Source: Sneathiella chungangensis (lineage in GTDB: Bacteria; Pseudomonadota; Alphaproteobacteria; Sneathiellales; Sneathiellaceae). From it: DNA of 64,000 bases. A program made the position numbers and the translations under genes. This document shows positions 39,773 to 47,084 of this stretch, in pieces; within the stretch, counting starts at the first letter, position 1, and each line of letters starts with the position of its first letter. The DNA lies in contig NZ_WTVA01000015.1 of assembly GCF_009882935.1 (NCBI RefSeq), positions 496,001-560,000 of the forward strand, in the 5' to 3' direction. The notes beneath the pieces are model-generated. The model worked only from the letters and a program-made list of their open reading frames with translations. It was not told the origin of the DNA and made no database searches.

Positions 39773-40198
39773 TTAATCGTCGGTCACTCTGCCGCGGCTC
39801 TTTTTAAGATGGCCGCGTTTTTGCTTTTTCTCCAGTCGCCGGAGCTTGGACGCGTGGGTGGGCCTGGTCGGACGCCGATATTTCGGGACAACCGCCGCGT
39901 CGCGTATCAGATCAACCAGACGGCTCAGCGCGGCTTTGCGATTTCTGTCCTGCGACCGGTATTCACTTGCCGTAAGAACAAGGACGCCGTCCTTCGTCAT
40001 ACGCTGTCCCGCCAGTTTCCGCAGGCGTTCGAAAACCGCCGGCGTCAGGTTGACGCTGTTCTTCGCATCGAATCGCAGTTGAACGGCGGTCTCGACCTTA
40101 TTGACATTTTGTCCGCCGGGGCCGGGCGCGCGCAGAAAGCTTTCCGTAATTTCCGATTCCGCAAGGGAAATATCGCTGTTGATCCTGATCATAGTCAT
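39773..40198 (-). CDS. arfB: Ribosome rescue hydrolase ArfB (YaeJ)
   Basis: 141 aa. It releases peptides from stalled ribosomes without a stop codon. The catalytic GGQ motif is in RAPGPGGQNVNKVETAVQLRFD. The basic tail THASKLRRLEKKQKRGHLKKSRGR would enter the mRNA channel, which distinguishes ArfB from RF1 and RF2. The length is as expected. ATG 40198 or 40192 are equally possible starts. Confidence 0.94.
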   Translation of the reverse strand: MTMIRINSDISLAESEITESFLRAPGPGGQNVNKVETAVQLRFDAKNSVNLTPAVFERLRKLAGQRMTKDGVLVLTASEYRSQDRNRKAALSRLVDLIRDAAVVPKYRRPTRPTHASKLRRLEKKQKRGHLKKSRGRVTDD

Positions 40199-40305: not shown

Positions 40306-41109
40306 ATGCCAAATACGCCTATCGATCTTGGAATCGATGCCTTCAGCCCAAAAGAGATGGCCGAGAAGGTCGAGACGGCCGGCGTCACGAAAGCCCATCT
40401 CGGTTTCACGCAAACGCTGATGCTCGCGATTTTGGCCGGGGCATTTATCTCATTCGGGGCCGCTTTTTATACATTGGTGATCACGGGGAGCGAGCTTGGA
40501 TTTGGCACGACCCGTTTCCTGGGTGGTATCGCCTTTTCCCTTGGCCTTGTCCTCGTGATCGTCGGCGGGGCGGAGTTATTTACCGGCAACAATCTCATCG
40601 TCATGGCATGGGCGAGCCGCAAGATATCCAGCCGCGAACTCCTTCGAAACTGGCTGATCGTCTATGCGGGAAATTTTATCGGTGCGCTTGGCACCGCTCT
40701 TTTGGTCAACCTGTCGGGCGTTCTCAACTTTAATGGCGGCGCCGTTGGCGACGCCGCAGCAACCATCGCCAACGCCAAAATCGCGCTGCCCCTGGTAAAC
40801 GCCTTCTTTCTCGCGGTTCTCTGCAACACACTCGTCTGTCTTGCGGTTTGGCTTTGCTTTGCCGCGCGGAACGTTAGCGGAAAGATTCTGGCAATCCTCT
40901 TTCCCGTATCCGCTTTCGTCGCCCTCGGCTTCGAGCATTCGATTGCGAATATGTACCTGATCCCGGTTGCCTATTTCCACGGCGTTGACACCATCCCTAT
41001 TGGCGGGTTCTTTTTGAACCTGCTGGTGGTTACGGCCGGAAATATATTAGGCGGGAGCGCCCTTGTCGCACTTGTCTACTGGATCATCTACTTGCGAAAG
41101 AGCGCATAA
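40306..41109 (+). CDS. Formate/nitrite transporter family channel (FNT)
   Basis: 267 aa with six membrane helices. FNT signatures: AILAGAFISFGAAFYTLVITG, GGIAFSLGLVLVIVGGAELFTGNN, RNWLIVYAGNFIGALG, NTLVCLAVWLCFAARNVSGKI and FEHSIANMYLIPVAYF (GFEHSIANM is the family hallmark with the central His region). It moves formate, nitrite or related small anions; the sequence does not decide which. It is transcribed alone, convergent with the YdcH gene. Confidence 0.93.
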   Translation: MPNTPIDLGIDAFSPKEMAEKVETAGVTKAHLGFTQTLMLAILAGAFISFGAAFYTLVITGSELGFGTTRFLGGIAFSLGLVLVIVGGAELFTGNNLIVMAWASRKISSRELLRNWLIVYAGNFIGALGTALLVNLSGVLNFNGGAVGDAAATIANAKIALPLVNAFFLAVLCNTLVCLAVWLCFAARNVSGKILAILFPVSAFVALGFEHSIANMYLIPVAYFHGVDTIPIGGFFLNLLVVTAGNILGGSALVALVYWIIYLRKSA

Positions 41110-41581: not shown

Positions 41582-42037
41582 ATGAAAAACCCGGAGACGA
41601 GAGAGGCGCTTGCCCTGTTGATCCTTCGCACCGGCCTTGCCTGGTTTCTTTTTGTCTGGGCGGTCAACAAGATCATAGAACCGGGACAATATGTCCGCAT
41701 CTGGGGTTACTTTCACGGGGTGGAGATCGGCCAAACAATGCCTTACCTGATGGGAGGCGCGCAGATCGCGATTTGTCTACTGGCCGCGCTGGGTCTCTGG
41801 CGCGTGGTTTCCTACGGTCTTTTGTTCTTGATGCATCTGGTGACCGTGATTGTCATTTTCCCGAGCCTTGTCTCTCCGTTCGTTATTGAAGACGGTTTTC
41901 CTATCAACCGGAACAATGCCATCGCATTAGCCGCTCTCGCGGGTTTCACGGCGCTCTGGCTCCTCCGGCACCGGGATCACTGGTCGCTTGACGTCTGGAT
42001 GCAGCGACGCAAAAACGCGGCGACGGCGTCGGATTAG
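41582..42037 (+). CDS. DoxX-like membrane protein
   Basis: 151 aa with four hydrophobic segments (ALALLILRTGLAWFLFVWAV, MPYLMGGAQIAICLLAALGLW, VVSYGLLFLMHLVTVIVIF, NNAIALAALAGFTALWLL). The pattern, with NKIIEPGQY after the first helix, fits DoxX/DoxD-like quinone-associated proteins. The specific role is not known. ATG 41582 has GAGGAG upstream; the longer frame from 41510 is not supported. Its end overlaps the convergent oxidoreductase gene by 4 nt. Confidence 0.82.
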   Translation: MKNPETREALALLILRTGLAWFLFVWAVNKIIEPGQYVRIWGYFHGVEIGQTMPYLMGGAQIAICLLAALGLWRVVSYGLLFLMHLVTVIVIFPSLVSPFVIEDGFPINRNNAIALAALAGFTALWLLRHRDHWSLDVWMQRRKNAATASD

Positions 42038-43008
42038 CCGACATGTACCAGGGTTTTCCCGATCGCCTGCTGATTTTCAAGGCGAGCGAGGGCGGCCCGC
42101 GCGTGATGAAGCGGAAAAACCTTGTCGATGACGGGACGCACGAGACCTCGTTCACACAGATCAAAGAGGTCCGCCATGACAAGGTTTGATATCTCGGGCC
42201 GCCGCCATGCGGTCAGCGACCAGTTCACGCCGAGGACGCCGTAAGACTTGATAAGCGGCATGTTCATGCGAAGGTCCGGTATCGTGCCGGATGCAAATCC
42301 AACGATCAGCAACCGACCACCGATCGCAAGTCTGCGGGAGCATATATCGAAAAGTTCGCCGCCAACCGGATCATAAATGACGTCGACCCCGCGATTGTCG
42401 GTTAGTTCCTTGAGCCGTTCCGCCAAATCTTCCTGACGGTAATTTATGGCAATATCGGCGCCGACTTCTCTGGCCGATTGCATCTTTTCCTCGCTGGAGC
42501 AGACGGCGATCACCCGGGCACCGAGGGCCTTGCCGATCTGGACGGCATAATTGCCGGTACCGCCGGCCGCGCCCAGAACGACAAGCGTCTCGCCTTCGCG
42601 GAGCCGGCCGCAGTATTTCAGGCCATACATCGCTGTCCCTCCGGCAAGCGGGACCGCGGCGCCGAGATCGTGGGACAGATTTTCCGGAAGCAAGAAGCAC
42701 ATTTGTTCGCGAACCGAACTGAACTGGCCAAGCGCGCCCTGTCCCATGCCAACGACCCGATCCCCGACTTTGAGGCGTTTGCAATCCTCGCCGGCCTCCC
42801 GAACGATACCGGAAAATTCCAGACCGAGAACAAAGGGCGGCTCCGGCTGGTCCTGATAAAGTCCTTTTGGCTGCAGTATATCCGGGAAATTGAGCGCAGC
42901 CGTCTTGATCTCAACGATCAGGCCGCGTGGCCGAACGGTGGGTTTCGGGAATTCACAAAGTTGCAGGCCATCAAGGCCCGCGGTGCCGTTAACAACAATC
43001 GCTTTCAT
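42034..43008 (-). CDS. NADPH:quinone oxidoreductase-like MDR dehydrogenase
   Basis: 324 aa, zinc-free medium-chain dehydrogenase. N-terminus MKAIVVNGTAGLDGLQLCEF, PDILQPKGLYQDQPEPPFVLGLEFSGIV, and the Rossmann motif LVVLGAAGGTGNYAVQIGKALGARVIAV. DVIYDPVGGELFD is the conserved quinone-oxidoreductase signature. No zinc-binding Cys cluster is present. ATG 43008 is preferred over a frame from 43053. It is divergent from the tandem HxlR regulator, and repeated operator-like elements lie between them. Confidence 0.9.
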   Translation of the reverse strand: MKAIVVNGTAGLDGLQLCEFPKPTVRPRGLIVEIKTAALNFPDILQPKGLYQDQPEPPFVLGLEFSGIVREAGEDCKRLKVGDRVVGMGQGALGQFSSVREQMCFLLPENLSHDLGAAVPLAGGTAMYGLKYCGRLREGETLVVLGAAGGTGNYAVQIGKALGARVIAVCSSEEKMQSAREVGADIAINYRQEDLAERLKELTDNRGVDVIYDPVGGELFDICSRRLAIGGRLLIVGFASGTIPDLRMNMPLIKSYGVLGVNWSLTAWRRPEISNLVMADLFDLCERGLVRPVIDKVFPLHHARAALARLENQQAIGKTLVHVG

Positions 43009-43052
43009 TCTTTTTATTCCGTCTTGTTGTCTTAGATCATGAGAATATCGCA

Positions 43053-43072
43053 AAAAGTCTCATATCGCAAGT
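43053..43072 (+). promoter_or_regulatory. Candidate HxlR-regulator element 1
   Basis: AAAAGTCTCATATCGCAAGT. It matches the right arm of the dyad at 46604-46623 at 17 of 20 positions. It lies 45 bp upstream of the tandem HxlR gene and 45 bp upstream of the oxidoreductase gene, so it could act on both. Confidence 0.6.
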
Positions 43073-43075
43073 AGA

Positions 43076-43095
43076 AATAGTCTCGTACTGAAAGC
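43076..43095 (+). promoter_or_regulatory. Candidate HxlR-regulator element 2 (weaker copy)
   Basis: AATAGTCTCGTACTGAAAGC. It matches 14 of 20 positions of element 1 and begins 23 bp after it (about two helical turns). Confidence 0.4.
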
Positions 43096-43117
43096 ATGAA
43101 AATGTTATACAGGCAGA

Positions 43118-44053
43118 ATGTTACAGGAAGAAATCTTGCCGGAAAGCAGCTGTTCCGTTGAGCGATCCTTCGAGATCCTTGGCGGCGCCTGGACCTTCCT
43201 CGTACTTCGGGAGGCATTGTTTCACGACGTCGTTCAGTTCGACAGTTTCCAGGCCAATCTCGGAATCGCACGTGAATCGCTCAAACGTGTCCTCAAGCGC
43301 CTTGTGCGTCACGGCGTGCTGGAGCAAAAGGCGCTCGTCCCCGGGGGTTTACGCAAAGGATATTTCCTGACCGAACGGGGCCGCGATCTGCTGCCGGCAC
43401 TTGTAGCGGCGCTCAACTGGGGCGAAGACTGGGTCGGAGAGGGCCCCAGCCCAGAAAGCCTCATTCACAAGAAATGCGGCCATCCCCTTAAGCGCGCCAT
43501 TGTCTGCTCTCACTGCCATCAGACAGTCGACGCGCGGGAGGTCAGCTTTGAAAGCCGGATCAAGAACCGGAGCAAGGGCCGCGCGAAATTTGCGAAAATG
43601 CGATATGTCGAGCAGGAGCTTCTGGAGCGTCAGCGGCCCTGCTCGATTGCCCGGACCATGGCGGCCATAGGCGACCCCTGGAGTTTTCTGATCATTCGCG
43701 AGTGCTTTTATGGTGTCAGGCGTTTCGATGCCTTCCAGCGGCGCCTGTCCATTGCGAGCAACATCCTGACAGCGCGTCTCAAACGGCTTGTCGCGGCAGG
43801 TGTGCTCCGGACGCAGCCGATTGCCGACCAGCCGCATCTTTCAGAATACAGAATGACGGAGAAGGGGCTGGCGCTTTATGCCGTGCCGCTCGCCATCATT
43901 GCCTGGGGTGACAAATGGCTTGCCGATGCAAAGGGGCCGCCGCTTATTCTCACGCATAAGGCGTGCGGTCATCAGTTTGCCGCGGAACTTCGTTGTCGGA
44001 CTTGCGACAGCCTGGTGACCCTCGACGATGTGGCATATCAGGCCCCTTCTTGA
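43118..44053 (+). CDS. Transcriptional regulator with two fused HxlR domains and zinc-ribbon-like segments
   Basis: 311 aa, about twice the size of an ordinary HxlR protein. First wHTH: CSVERSFEILGGAWTFLVLREALFHDVVQFDSFQANLGIARESLKRVL, residues 12-95. Second: CSIARTMAAIGDPWSFLIIRECFYGVRRFDAFQRRLSIASNILTARL, residues 175-260. Each is followed by a possible zinc ribbon: KKCGHPLKRAIVCSHCHQ and KACGHQFAAELRCRTCDS. HxlR proteins normally bind DNA as dimers with the first Cys as a redox or aldehyde sensor; both units here keep a Cys at that place. The fusion would give a built-in dimer. The repeats upstream suggest self-regulation. Confidence 0.88.
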   Translation: MLQEEILPESSCSVERSFEILGGAWTFLVLREALFHDVVQFDSFQANLGIARESLKRVLKRLVRHGVLEQKALVPGGLRKGYFLTERGRDLLPALVAALNWGEDWVGEGPSPESLIHKKCGHPLKRAIVCSHCHQTVDAREVSFESRIKNRSKGRAKFAKMRYVEQELLERQRPCSIARTMAAIGDPWSFLIIRECFYGVRRFDAFQRRLSIASNILTARLKRLVAAGVLRTQPIADQPHLSEYRMTEKGLALYAVPLAIIAWGDKWLADAKGPPLILTHKACGHQFAAELRCRTCDSLVTLDDVAYQAPS

Positions 44054-45684
44054 ACCTTTTGCCCCTTCACGTAGGCGGCCGCCCATCGATAATCCGGCTT
44101 GCCATTGGCGTGCCGAACGATTTCCGGCACGAAGAAGATCTGCTTGGGTAACTTATACCGGGCGATATGCCGGGAAGATTCTTCATGAATAGCCGTTTCT
44201 TGCGCCTCGGTATCAGGATGTAGCTGGACGACGGCGACAGCTTCCTGTCCCCAGCGGGCGCTTTCCCGGCCGACAACCAGCGCATCCTTTACGGCAGCAT
44301 GTTTTTTCAGCGCTTCTTCCACTTCCTCGACGAATATTTTTTCACCGCCGCTATTGATCACGAGGGAATCCCGACCGAAGAGCCGGACCAGATCCCCGCC
44401 CAACAACTGCGCGCGATCACCGGCAATGGCAAAGCGTTCCCCGTCGATCCTGACGAAGGTTTTTTTCGTCGCCACCTCGTCATTCAGATAACCGATGGGA
44501 ACATATTTGCGACGAGCCCACCAACCGAGCCCATCATGTCCTTCTTCAAGCAACGCCGTGCGATCCTCGCTCAGAACGGCGCTGCTCGGCGACATTTTGA
44601 AGGTCCCGGACGGATGCCCCTCGATATCCTCGACATGCTGCCCCTGATTGCCGCCTTCGGTCGACCCCAGGAAATCGAGAATTCTTGTTTTCGGCAACAA
44701 GCGGGTAAGTTCCTTCTTCGTGCGCGCCGACAAATGGGCTCCGCTGTTCAGAAAAAAGCGAAGCGTTCCAAGATCACGGCTTCCCATTTTGATTTCCTCA
44801 ATCAATGGAATGGCAAAGGCATCTCCGACGATGGAGAGCATCACGACTTTTTCGCGTTCGATGGTATCGAGAATATCCGCCGCGTCAAAATGCGCGACCT
44901 GATCCTGAATAACGACCGTGTTCCCGGCGAACAGGCCCATGATGGCATTCCATTGCCCCGCCGCATGCATAAAGGGGGGCGCGGGCATCACCGGCATTGT
45001 TCCCTCCCGAGCGATGGCGGCGACTTCGTCGAGGCTTTCGATAATGCCCTTGTCCGATAGTCGCCGCCCGCCCAGAACCGAGATCCAGATATCCCCCTGC
45101 CGCCAGAGCACGCCCTTCGGCTTACCGGTGGTGCCTCCGGTATAGAGGATATAAAGATCGTCCGGGCTGTAAGGAAGCATCACAGTATCCGGCGTGGCTG
45201 CTTCCAGGAGAAACTCGTAATCGATCGCGTCATCAATATAGGAAGGGCCGCCATCGTCGATCTCGATAAAGATTTGGAGGTCGGGAAGGCGATCCCTGAT
45301 CGCCGCAAGCTTTTCGCCGAAGCTCCGTTGGTAGACAATCGCCCTTGCTTTCGCGTTATTGAGAAGATAGGCAAGCTCCTGCTCAACATAGCGGTAATTC
45401 ACATTGAACGGGGCGACGCGCGCCTTGAACGCCCCGAACATGGTTTCGAGATATTCATTGCCGTTATGCAGATAGATCGCAATCAGGTCCTGTCCCGACT
45501 GCCAATCCTCCACTGTTTCCCGCTCCTGATGGCAACCGAGCTTCAGCGCGCCAAGCGCATTGGCGAGGCGGCTGGAGCGATCCGCAAAATCCGCGAATGT
45601 CCATCTTTTTCCACGGCAGACAATCGCCTCCCGCTCAGGGACGGCATTGCATACACAATCGAGGACTTGCGTTAGATGAAACAT
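44038..45684 (-). CDS. AMP-dependent acyl-CoA synthetase
   Basis: 548 aa. It activates a carboxylic acid to the acyl-CoA through an acyl-adenylate. ATP/AMP motif LYTGGTTGKPKGVLWR, GSTEGG, the hinge GYLNDEV with GERFAIAGDRAQLLGGDLVRLFGRDSLVINSGGEKIFVEEVEEAL, and the catalytic Lys near the end in RYKLPKQIFFVPEI. The N-terminal half (VCRGKRWTFADFADRSSRLANAL) is normal. The acid substrate (fatty, aromatic or steroid side chain) is not determined by sequence. It is 52 nt downstream of the enoyl-CoA hydratase gene and likely in its operon. Its 3' end overlaps the convergent hxlR gene end. Confidence 0.92.
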   Translation of the reverse strand: MFHLTQVLDCVCNAVPEREAIVCRGKRWTFADFADRSSRLANALGALKLGCHQERETVEDWQSGQDLIAIYLHNGNEYLETMFGAFKARVAPFNVNYRYVEQELAYLLNNAKARAIVYQRSFGEKLAAIRDRLPDLQIFIEIDDGGPSYIDDAIDYEFLLEAATPDTVMLPYSPDDLYILYTGGTTGKPKGVLWRQGDIWISVLGGRRLSDKGIIESLDEVAAIAREGTMPVMPAPPFMHAAGQWNAIMGLFAGNTVVIQDQVAHFDAADILDTIEREKVVMLSIVGDAFAIPLIEEIKMGSRDLGTLRFFLNSGAHLSARTKKELTRLLPKTRILDFLGSTEGGNQGQHVEDIEGHPSGTFKMSPSSAVLSEDRTALLEEGHDGLGWWARRKYVPIGYLNDEVATKKTFVRIDGERFAIAGDRAQLLGGDLVRLFGRDSLVINSGGEKIFVEEVEEALKKHAAVKDALVVGRESARWGQEAVAVVQLHPDTEAQETAIHEESSRHIARYKLPKQIFFVPEIVRHANGKPDYRWAAAYVKGQKVQEGA

Positions 45685-45736
45685 TCTTCGGGCACCAGTT
45701 CGGGACCGCGCTCAGGCGCTCCCCTTAAATAATGTA

Positions 45737-46531
45737 TCAGTCAGACCAGAAATCCTTGGACAATTCCCGCCGCTTCTTGCGGCTTTCCGCTTTCGTGAAA
45801 TCCTTGAGCCCAGATGAGCCGCGCGCATAGGGCATGATGGGAACCTCGAACGCGAGCGCCCCCTGTACCGACAGGTCGGCGCTCTTGTTAAGGGCGAATT
45901 TCGTCCGGCGTACCGTCATTGGATGCTTCTGCAGCATGATTTCCGTCAGCTTGGCGACCTCACTGGTAAGCTTTTCCGGTGAGACAACCCGGTTGACAAG
46001 GTCATAGCGCTCGGCCTTCTCCGCCGAGAACAACATGCCGATCAGGTTCCATTCCTTCGCCTTGCGCCGTCCCGCGAACCGGGGAATTCTGGAAAGACCA
46101 CCCCAACCCGGCGTGATGTCCCAGTCGATTTCCGGCATTCCCCAACGGGAGCGGTTAGTCGCGACAACAAAATCACAAACAAGCGTAAGCTCGAGCCCGC
46201 CACCCGTGCAGACGCCATCGACGGCGGCAATGGTGACAGGCGTCAGATCTTCTATCAGTTGTACGGTTTCCTGATAAAGGCGGACCTGCCAGTAGGCTTC
46301 GTCGCCTTTCCATTCATTGAATTCTTTTATGTCGTCGCCTGCGCAGAAGGTATCTCCGGCGCCGCGAAGGATCATGACGCGGCATTCCCTGTCGGCCCGA
46401 ACGGCGAGAATGGCGTCTTTTAGCTCCGCCGATAATTCCCGGTCGAGCGCATTATGCACTTCCGGCCGGTTCAAGGTGATCGTCGTGACTTCGTCCTTGC
46501 GCTCGAAAATCAATTTCTTGTAATCGCTCAT
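45737..46531 (-). CDS. Enoyl-CoA hydratase/isomerase (crotonase family)
   Basis: 264 aa. Oxyanion-hole and substrate segments: ILRGAGDTFCAGDDIKEF and VDGVCTGGGLELTLVCDFVVA. The two catalytic Glu positions are filled: GGGLEL and WGMPEIDWDITPGWGG. The enzyme hydrates trans-2-enoyl-CoA or isomerises related acyl-CoAs. First gene of an operon with the acyl-CoA ligase, divergent from the thioesterase across a long dyad. Confidence 0.91.
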   Translation of the reverse strand: MSDYKKLIFERKDEVTTITLNRPEVHNALDRELSAELKDAILAVRADRECRVMILRGAGDTFCAGDDIKEFNEWKGDEAYWQVRLYQETVQLIEDLTPVTIAAVDGVCTGGGLELTLVCDFVVATNRSRWGMPEIDWDITPGWGGLSRIPRFAGRRKAKEWNLIGMLFSAEKAERYDLVNRVVSPEKLTSEVAKLTEIMLQKHPMTVRRTKFALNKSADLSVQGALAFEVPIMPYARGSSGLKDFTKAESRKKRRELSKDFWSD

Positions 46532-46582
46532 TCTTTTTCCTTCCCTGTTCGGTTCTTCTTGTTTAGCGATTTTCTCAATGCT

Positions 46583-46623
46583 ACTTTCGTTATAAGATTT
46601 ATAAAAAGTCTAATAACGAAAGT
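46583..46623. promoter_or_regulatory. Long inverted repeat, candidate HxlR-regulator operator
   Basis: ACTTTCGTTATAAGA (46583-46597) and TCTAATAACGAAAGT (46609-46623) are inverted copies with one mismatch in fifteen, separated by 11 bp. It lies 52-92 bp upstream of the enoyl-CoA hydratase and 36-76 bp upstream of the thioesterase. Both arms carry the same 20-bp element as the region ahead of the tandem HxlR gene. Confidence 0.7.
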
Positions 46624-46658
46624 CAACCGCAAAAATTGTGGAAGGGAAATTGTCGAAA

Positions 46659-47084
46659 ATGACACGCAAACCACTGCCCGGTGACATTCCGCCAGGGTTC
46701 GTCGAAAGCCGGACGCGCGGCCCCTTTTCAACCCATAACGGGCCGTTCTTTCACAAAGTGGAGGGAGACCGTTTCTGGCATGGTCTCTTTGTAACCGCGC
46801 GTCATTGCAACTCGCGCGGGCGTCTTCATGGCGGCATGATGACGACCTTCGCCGACGGCCTGATGGCCACCGCCGTAGCCCGCGCCAACAAGGTTACCGC
46901 CGTGACCATCAATCTCAACTGCAATATCTGCGCGGCCGCCGATATCGGTGACTGGCTGGAGGGGACTGCGCATCAGACAGGGCTAAACGACGGATTCGCC
47001 TTCGTCGAGGCCGAAGCCCGGGTCGGCGAGAATATCATTTTTAATGCGAGCGGGGTGTTTCGGCTCTTGGAAGAGAGAGGATAG
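46659..47084 (+). CDS. PaaI-type acyl-CoA thioesterase (hotdog fold)
   Basis: 141 aa. The hotdog helix reads SRGRLHGGMMTTFADGLMATAVARA, with the HGG and the acidic Asp of the PaaI group, followed by TVAVTINLNCNICAAADIGDWLEG-like strands. It would hydrolyse an acyl-CoA, perhaps relieving CoA trapping. An in-frame GTG at 46638 is possible; ATG 46659 is preferred, with GAAGGGA about 11 bases upstream. It is divergent from the enoyl-CoA hydratase and followed by a terminator. Confidence 0.88.
   Translation: MTRKPLPGDIPPGFVESRTRGPFSTHNGPFFHKVEGDRFWHGLFVTARHCNSRGRLHGGMMTTFADGLMATAVARANKVTAVTINLNCNICAAADIGDWLEGTAHQTGLNDGFAFVEAEARVGENIIFNASGVFRLLEERG

Follow-up and report, generated by a model that had tools for sequence, protein, structure and literature searches.

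A lopsided 18-base-pair element as the probable operator of a tandem-HxlR regulator in Sneathiella

Which protein, if any, reads a short element that stands at two divergent gene pairs in Sneathiella chungangensis, and how would a regulator with two fused DNA-binding domains recognize it? We examined a 64,000-nucleotide stretch of this genome (contig NZ_WTVA01000015.1, positions 496,001 to 560,000 of the forward strand; the window), in which the element precedes the gene of a tandem-HxlR protein and recurs between an enoyl-CoA hydratase gene and a thioesterase gene. Judging from sequence comparisons, the element is probably the operator of the adjoining tandem-HxlR protein, which would act as a local, autoregulated pseudo-dimer repressor of an acyl-CoA module.

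The original prediction described a 20-base-pair (bp) element at both gene pairs, with matches at 17 of 20 bases and one weaker copy, and the sequence bears out all of this. The copies AAAAGTCTCATATCGCAAGT (43053-43072) and AAAAGTCTAATAACGAAAGT (46604-46623) are identical at 17 of 20 bases, as are the reverse complement of 46583-46602 and the second copy (46604-46623), and the weaker copy is found at 43076-43095 (matches counted by eye). Alignments of the intergenic gaps from eight orthologous loci define a core, AAGTCTNRTANYGMAAGY, of 18 bp, so that the element measures 17-18 bp rather than 20. The core copies and the regulator gene are as follows.

43055-43072, forward strand: putative operator copy 1, AAGTCTCATATCGCAAGT, 0 mismatches; found in 7 of 8 loci, missing in locus G020
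43078-43095, forward strand: putative operator copy 2, TAGTCTCGTACTGAAAGC, 1 mismatch; present in all eight loci; located where the hxlR promoter would have its -35
46583-46600, reverse strand: putative operator copy 3, the inverted arm, AAATCTTATAACGAAAGT, 1 mismatch; present in all eight loci, at 0-2 mismatches
46606-46623, forward strand: putative operator copy 4, AAGTCTAATAACGAAAGT, 0 mismatches here and in 8 of 8 loci
43118-44053, forward strand: tandem HxlR regulator of 311 amino acids, arranged as HxlR 1, HxxC-x9-CxxC, HxlR 2 and a second HxxC-x9-CxxC

The consensus of one copy is AGTCT-N7-MAAGY, a lopsided site with two unlike halves. In seven loci the regulator-side pair forms direct repeats offset by 22 or 23 bp (23 bp in the window), and the hydratase-side pair is inverted, at a distance of 23 bp, in all eight. 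A single copy precedes the regulator gene of G020, whose hydratase-side dyad, CTTTCGTTATAAGACTT and its mirror, is nearly perfect. Checking the orthologous loci for missing elements, we found sites in all eight loci that keep the regulator. Across seven loci (G020, a 69% ortholog, was excluded from these counts), 30 of 36 columns within the sites are invariant in the gap between the oxidoreductase gene (mdr) and hxlR, against 31 of 74 outside them; in the hydratase-thioesterase gap the counts are 34 of 36 and 23 of 91.

Random recurrence of the element was checked genome by genome. Within the 3,809,925 bases of the S. chungangensis genome, the core at 0-1 mismatch has four matches, exactly the four locus copies. 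Orthologs of the tandem-HxlR protein occur in 7 of 23 other genomes of the genus, at 69-83% identity, and the eight regulator genomes have three to four sites each at no more than one mismatch; all 29 of these matches, 21 of them perfect, fall at the locus and none elsewhere. The 16 genomes without the regulator hold no perfect core match and eight one-mismatch matches, scattered over five genomes (0-2 each). A reversed control pattern at the same threshold gave 6 matches in the regulator genomes and 40 in the other 16. The hydratase gene (E values up to 1e-60) is present in the same 8 of 24 genomes as the regulator and in no other, and since regulator, hydratase and sites occur together in all eight and the regulator is absent elsewhere, regulator, genes and sites appear to travel together. 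Six of the seven orthologous loci keep the whole block of oxidoreductase, regulator, CoA ligase, hydratase and thioesterase; in G020 we detected no thioesterase in the 6.6 kilobases (kb) examined past the hydratase. Of the 24 genus genomes, 17 reach 90% completeness with contamination no higher than 5%; the other seven miss at least one of these limits, and single absences in them weigh less.

Looser matching added nothing to this set. There are seven further core matches at two mismatches in the S. chungangensis genome, and at up to three mismatches the core has 121 matches against 270 for the reversed control, so we treat the looser matches as background. Six of the seven two-mismatch places lie inside stop-to-stop frames of 156-554 codons (an open frame being no proof of a gene), and the seventh (L048), before a gene read by eye as an aldehyde dehydrogenase, showed no conservation in four aligned relatives. 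A wider regulon in this genome was rejected on these grounds. Of the regulon originally predicted, the shared operator at the locus stands, but its reach is narrow and local, with no further member in the genome.

The regulator itself is composite. Pfam HxlR (PF01638) matches two stretches of it (E 1.9e-31, 108 bits against a cut-off of 20.8), and an AlphaFold2 model (predicted local distance difference test, pLDDT, 81; predicted template-modelling score, pTM, 0.82) places the recognition helices at residues 52-64 of HxlR 1, with Arg52 first, and 214-226 of HxlR 2, with Ser214 first. Each HxlR domain is followed by a ribbon-like HxxC-x9-CxxC segment (residues 114-147 and 276-308), and H117, C120, C130 and C133 as well as H280, C283, C293 and C296 are invariant in all nine aligned proteins (eight Sneathiella-type and one from Dehalococcoidia). 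The DUF24 thiol sensors HxlR and YodB have a conserved sensing Cys near the N-terminus, in helix 1. Cys12, a candidate counterpart in the tandem proteins, is invariant in the nine, but several rhizobial proteins have Ser at this position of the N-terminal domain. A Pfam CDC24_OB3 match on residues 114-147 is probably spurious.

The same site stands at tandem genes of other genera, the pattern having been fixed on Sneathiella before any of them was examined. Near full-length relatives of the regulator, about 40-44% identical, are encoded on plasmids of Rhizobium, Agrobacterium, Sinorhizobium, Aminobacter and Bradyrhizobium, and the site lies 70-240 bp before the regulator gene in the examined rhizobial loci, as a single copy except in Bradyrhizobium elkanii, which has two (a 23-bp pair). 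Several of these loci repeat the site, often perfectly, between xanthine-dehydrogenase-type and coxG genes or between ABC genes. Seven plasmid loci totaling 100 kb gave 6 perfect matches, 9 at one mismatch and 12 at two, where 40 permuted patterns averaged 0, 0 and 0.35 on the same sequence, several of the loci being close relatives.

A broader sample of tandem proteins from the class and phylum comprised 35 distinct proteins in 18 clusters (single linkage, 70% identity), which we grouped by the first residue of each recognition helix. Among the non-Sneathiella clusters with Arg in the first domain and Ser, Thr or Pro in the second, the site was found within 330 bp upstream in 6 of 10 when two mismatches were allowed and in 1 of 10 when only one was, and 300 column-permuted patterns on the same clusters gave a mean of 0.04 and a maximum of 2. 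One Lys/Ser cluster also has the site, giving 7 of 13 non-Sneathiella clusters with a basic and then a small residue, and none of 98 upstream regions of single-domain homologues contained it. A Tistrella plasmid locus (L167) with a possibly tandem gene showed no site and was left uncounted. At several of the rhizobial plasmid loci (L142, L143, L146, L163 and L165), the tandem-HxlR genes adjoin genes for xanthine-dehydrogenase-type subunits and an N-acyl homoserine lactonase-family protein; longer plasmid stretches also show coxG and branched-chain ABC genes, together an uncharacterised plasmid-borne cluster.

How the two domains might divide the site between them is suggested by the single-domain homologues, many of which carry upstream palindromes (for example TAGTCC-N7-GGACTA and AGTTCC-N5-GGAACT) that share the 17-bp register of the operator copies. 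One operator copy would then be a pseudo-palindrome with unlike halves in the register of the single-domain palindromes. Searching 50 single-domain upstream regions with fixed palindromes made from one half or the other brought no clear excess over permuted patterns. A more general finder, with R1, T3, A15 and Y17 fixed, positions 2 and 16 complementary but of any base, and at least three of the next four pairs matched, detected palindromes in 42 of 98 upstream regions versus 3.8% of shuffled ones. Arg or Lys as the first helix residue goes with G at position 2 in 29 sequences, with T in 4 and with C in 1, and Ser, Thr or Pro goes with C in 6 and with A in 2. Counted by cluster, G versus C is 16 to 1 for Arg/Lys and 0 to 4 for Ser/Thr/Pro (Fisher p 0.0008). 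This association was first seen by eye, on about half of the 98 upstream regions that later entered the test, and was then tested; the 48 fetched after the rule was noted gave, on their own, 11 to 0 and 0 to 3 (p 0.003), and an earlier form of the test, anchored more strictly by A and T at the ends, gave p values of 0.045 and 0.003. The nearest to a single-residue comparison is L229 (helix GIARNILSARL), with AGTTGCATCATGCAACT, and L231 (GIASNILSARL), with GCTTGCATGATGCAAGT.

Two further arrangements were observed before single-domain genes. Several AGTYTC / GGTTTC near-palindromes stand in a row before the genes at L193 and L198-L201, whose Lys helix reads GISKKVL, which suggests arrays of HxlR sites. 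Closely paired palindromes of the CTTGCAT-ATGCAAG type precede the single-domain HxlR genes at L226, L230 and L231.

Among the tandem proteins, 14 of 18 clusters begin the N-terminal recognition helix with a basic residue and the C-terminal one with a small residue; the remaining clusters have Gln/Thr (one) or a basic residue in both domains (three), so that 15 of 18 combine both settings if Gln is allowed in first place. When both discriminating bases were left free, all seven matching non-Sneathiella basic/small clusters had G on the left and C on the right (other strand), and the sole matching basic/basic cluster (G087) had G on both sides. This base pattern is as expected if each domain reads one half. 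We are therefore inclined, if only modestly, toward a one-residue switch in HxlR proteins, with Arg or Lys specifying G and Ser, Thr or Pro specifying C at position 2, and toward tandem proteins as covalent heterodimers with a lopsided operator and insulated catabolic regulons. One molecule would then be a covalent pseudo-dimer whose two winged-helix domains occupy consecutive major grooves within a single 17-bp site. The AGTCT half would be read by the N-terminal domain, which carries Arg52, and the RCTTKC half by the C-terminal domain, which carries Ser214; this assignment of domains to halves depends on the residue rule.

A number of results weigh against these readings. The site is missing from the 330 bp upstream in 6 of 13 non-Sneathiella basic/small tandem clusters, in two of three basic/basic clusters and in the single Gln/Thr cluster, and the Cupriavidus, Dehalococcoidia and G357 loci have no site near the gene at up to two mismatches. 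The residue rule has exceptions: four Arg/Lys clusters with T and one with C (L138, tied with a G palindrome), and two Ser/Thr/Pro clusters with A. In addition, L226 and L230 share the eleven helix residues of L231, including its Ser, yet have an AGTTGC half in the second copy. Requiring all four pairs left 10 of 98 upstream regions, with clusters at 4 to 0 versus 0 to 2 (p 0.07), and wholly new clusters gave 9 to 0 versus 0 to 1, plus one Ser/Thr/Pro cluster with A (p 0.1). Residue and operator are both inherited, and the clusters are not fully independent.

What the protein would do at these sites depends on the genes and promoters around them, which are listed here (promoter elements were read by eye).

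42034-43008, reverse strand: medium-chain dehydrogenase / quinone oxidoreductase gene (mdr), Pfam ADH_N and ADH_zinc_N
44038-45684, reverse strand: acyl-CoA synthetase gene of the PRK07798 subfamily (score 626 bits, cut-off 543), lying downstream of the hydratase gene
45737-46531, reverse strand: enoyl-CoA hydratase / crotonase family gene by profile match, under the cut-offs of the NCBIfam models among the matches listed
46659-47084, forward strand: hotdog-fold thioesterase (4HBT) gene by profile match; a GTG start at 46638 is also possible
43042-43070, reverse strand: candidate weak oxidoreductase promoter, TTGCGA (43070-43065), 17 bp, TATTCT (43047-43042)
43103-43111, forward strand: extended -10-like element of hxlR, TGTTATACA, 6 bp before the ATG
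46598-46626, reverse strand: candidate hydratase promoter, TTGACT (46626-46621), 17 bp, TATAAA (46603-46598)

We take the oxidoreductase to start at the ATG at 43008, from which its orthologs align; the open reading frame list has a longer TTG form. Its best NCBIfam model among the matches listed is PIG3-like, with a score under the cut-off. We leave the pathway without a name because, among the models listed, only the ligase clears a cut-off (PRK07798) and the other enzymes fall under theirs. Upstream in the window, the gene at 39773-40198 appears to encode a small basic protein of the release-factor-type rescue kind, and that at 40306-41109 a membrane transporter, presumably of the formate/nitrite type; of the seven orthologous stretches, six have a match to the first and four to the second.

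Copy 4 occupies the 17-bp spacer of the hydratase promoter and extends into its -35 TTGACT, copy 1 overlaps the weak TTGCGA...TATTCT on the oxidoreductase strand, and copy 2 lies upstream of the hxlR -10-like TGNTAT, which is kept in all eight loci. The hydratase hexamers are identical in six of eight loci (the -10 differs in two), and those of the oxidoreductase are similar but variable among orthologs. The claim that all promoters of the module and of the regulator are covered is supported for the promoter regions before the regulator gene and the acyl-CoA module, where the sites are kept in all eight loci. The synthetase gene lacks its own core match at 0-1 mismatch and, lying 52 bp behind the hydratase gene, is presumably read from the hydratase promoter. 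Such an arrangement is consistent with a repressor lying over the promoters of both divergent gene pairs, without proving repression.

The protein might instead bind these sites and activate the module, as Bacillus HxlR activates hxlAB, and PMC7835342 describes HxlR as a formaldehyde-responsive activator. The promoters here are also too weak for the rule of a stricter consensus promoter scan, which lists none in either gap. Because the hexamers were read by eye and the scan lists none, the choice of repression over activation is uncertain. An activator site, however, would be expected upstream of the -35, whereas copy 4 in the hydratase promoter spacer and copy 2 at the hxlR -35, as read by eye, are in usual places for repression. 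We thus view activation as unlikely, though a serious contender, and favor repression.

A second alternative concerns the unit of recognition: the two 20-bp copies of a pair would be shared out, one to each of the fused domains or one to each molecule of a dimer. The Sneathiella copies are paired at a constant 22-23 bp whatever their orientation, and the 23-bp pair of B. elkanii repeats this spacing. Against this, G020 and the other examined rhizobial loci have single copies before the regulator gene, each copy holds two half-sites in the register of the single-domain palindromes, and the halves of one copy differ as the two helices differ. The pair as the recognition unit is accordingly improbable, and the original argument that two fused domains call for long, paired sites is not supported, given the same single copies and internal half-sites. 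The two domains more likely read the halves of one copy, because a single copy already has two half-sites in a 17-bp register. Pairing is then probably a second level, the cooperation of two molecules on one face of the DNA: at each divergent promoter pair, two sites set about two helical turns (22-23 bp) apart would seat two molecules on the same face, and the bound pair would cover the -35 and spacer region of the promoters.

The element might also be the site of another regulator that was inherited with the locus, since the site is known here from its sequence alone. This we consider very doubtful: the same site stands beside tandem-HxlR genes with other gene neighbors in other families, and it is absent from the 98 single-domain HxlR upstream regions and, as a perfect match, from the 16 genus genomes without the regulator. 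Short A+T-rich repeats are common near promoters, but chance or mere promoter resemblance is a negligible explanation given the genome exclusivity, the genus scan, the upstream test with permuted patterns, the column conservation and the base pattern in other genera.

In the repressor model, the tandem-HxlR protein would hold down the oxidoreductase, CoA ligase, crotonase and thioesterase genes until released by a ligand of the pathway. The enzymes point most simply to an acyl-CoA or enoyl-CoA, and the Cys and His segments to a thiol or metal signal. If the heterodimer reading is right, the operator would be lopsided and direction-bearing, unreadable by single-domain paralogues, and fusion would insulate local catabolic regulons; tandem proteins would offer a clear natural case of gene fusion giving an asymmetric site and freedom from paralogue cross-talk. 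Bacteria commonly carry HxlR genes, most of them uncharacterised, and if the residue rule holds, the operators of many HxlR regulators would be predictable from sequence.

In searches of open-licence literature, no title or abstract start dealt with tandem HxlR proteins, their operators or the residue rule. The regulator was also compared with solved structures and described families. Each half of the tandem protein is an HxlR winged-helix domain like those of the HxlR / MarR-DUF24 regulators (Bacillus HxlR 7bzg, YodB 5hs7 and HypR 4a5m; Staphylococcus QsrR 4hqe). Unlike these, the tandem protein has two domains per chain, differing recognition helices, an HxxC-x9-CxxC segment after each and an operator that is lopsided rather than palindromic. 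In PMC7835342, a paper on engineered HxlR-based sensors, Bacillus HxlR is described as a DNA-binding dimer whose recognition helices lie 34.8 angstrom from each other, a spacing that would suit a 17-bp site.

The whole regulator model finds mainly one-domain matches among solved structures. Closest to one half are PA1607 (2f2e) and PA1374 (4gcv) of Pseudomonas aeruginosa, with E values of 2e-27 and 5e-26, and PA1607 superimposes on one half with a Z score of 13.3 and a root-mean-square deviation of 2.0 over 142 residues; unlike the tandem regulator, both are a single copy of the unit. SarS-type regulators of Staphylococcus also have two winged-helix domains fused, with one molecule in place of a dimer. 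They are another branch of the MarR superfamily, and the SarS-type structure 1p4x matches the whole model weakly (Foldseek E 0.007, TM score 0.22); we know of no lopsided operator of this kind for them. The rhizobial plasmid tandem HxlR proteins, annotated as helix-turn-helix domain-containing proteins, are the near full-length relatives described above and have the same operator, although their genes adjoin xanthine-dehydrogenase-type, lactonase-family, coxG and branched-chain ABC genes rather than the Sneathiella module.

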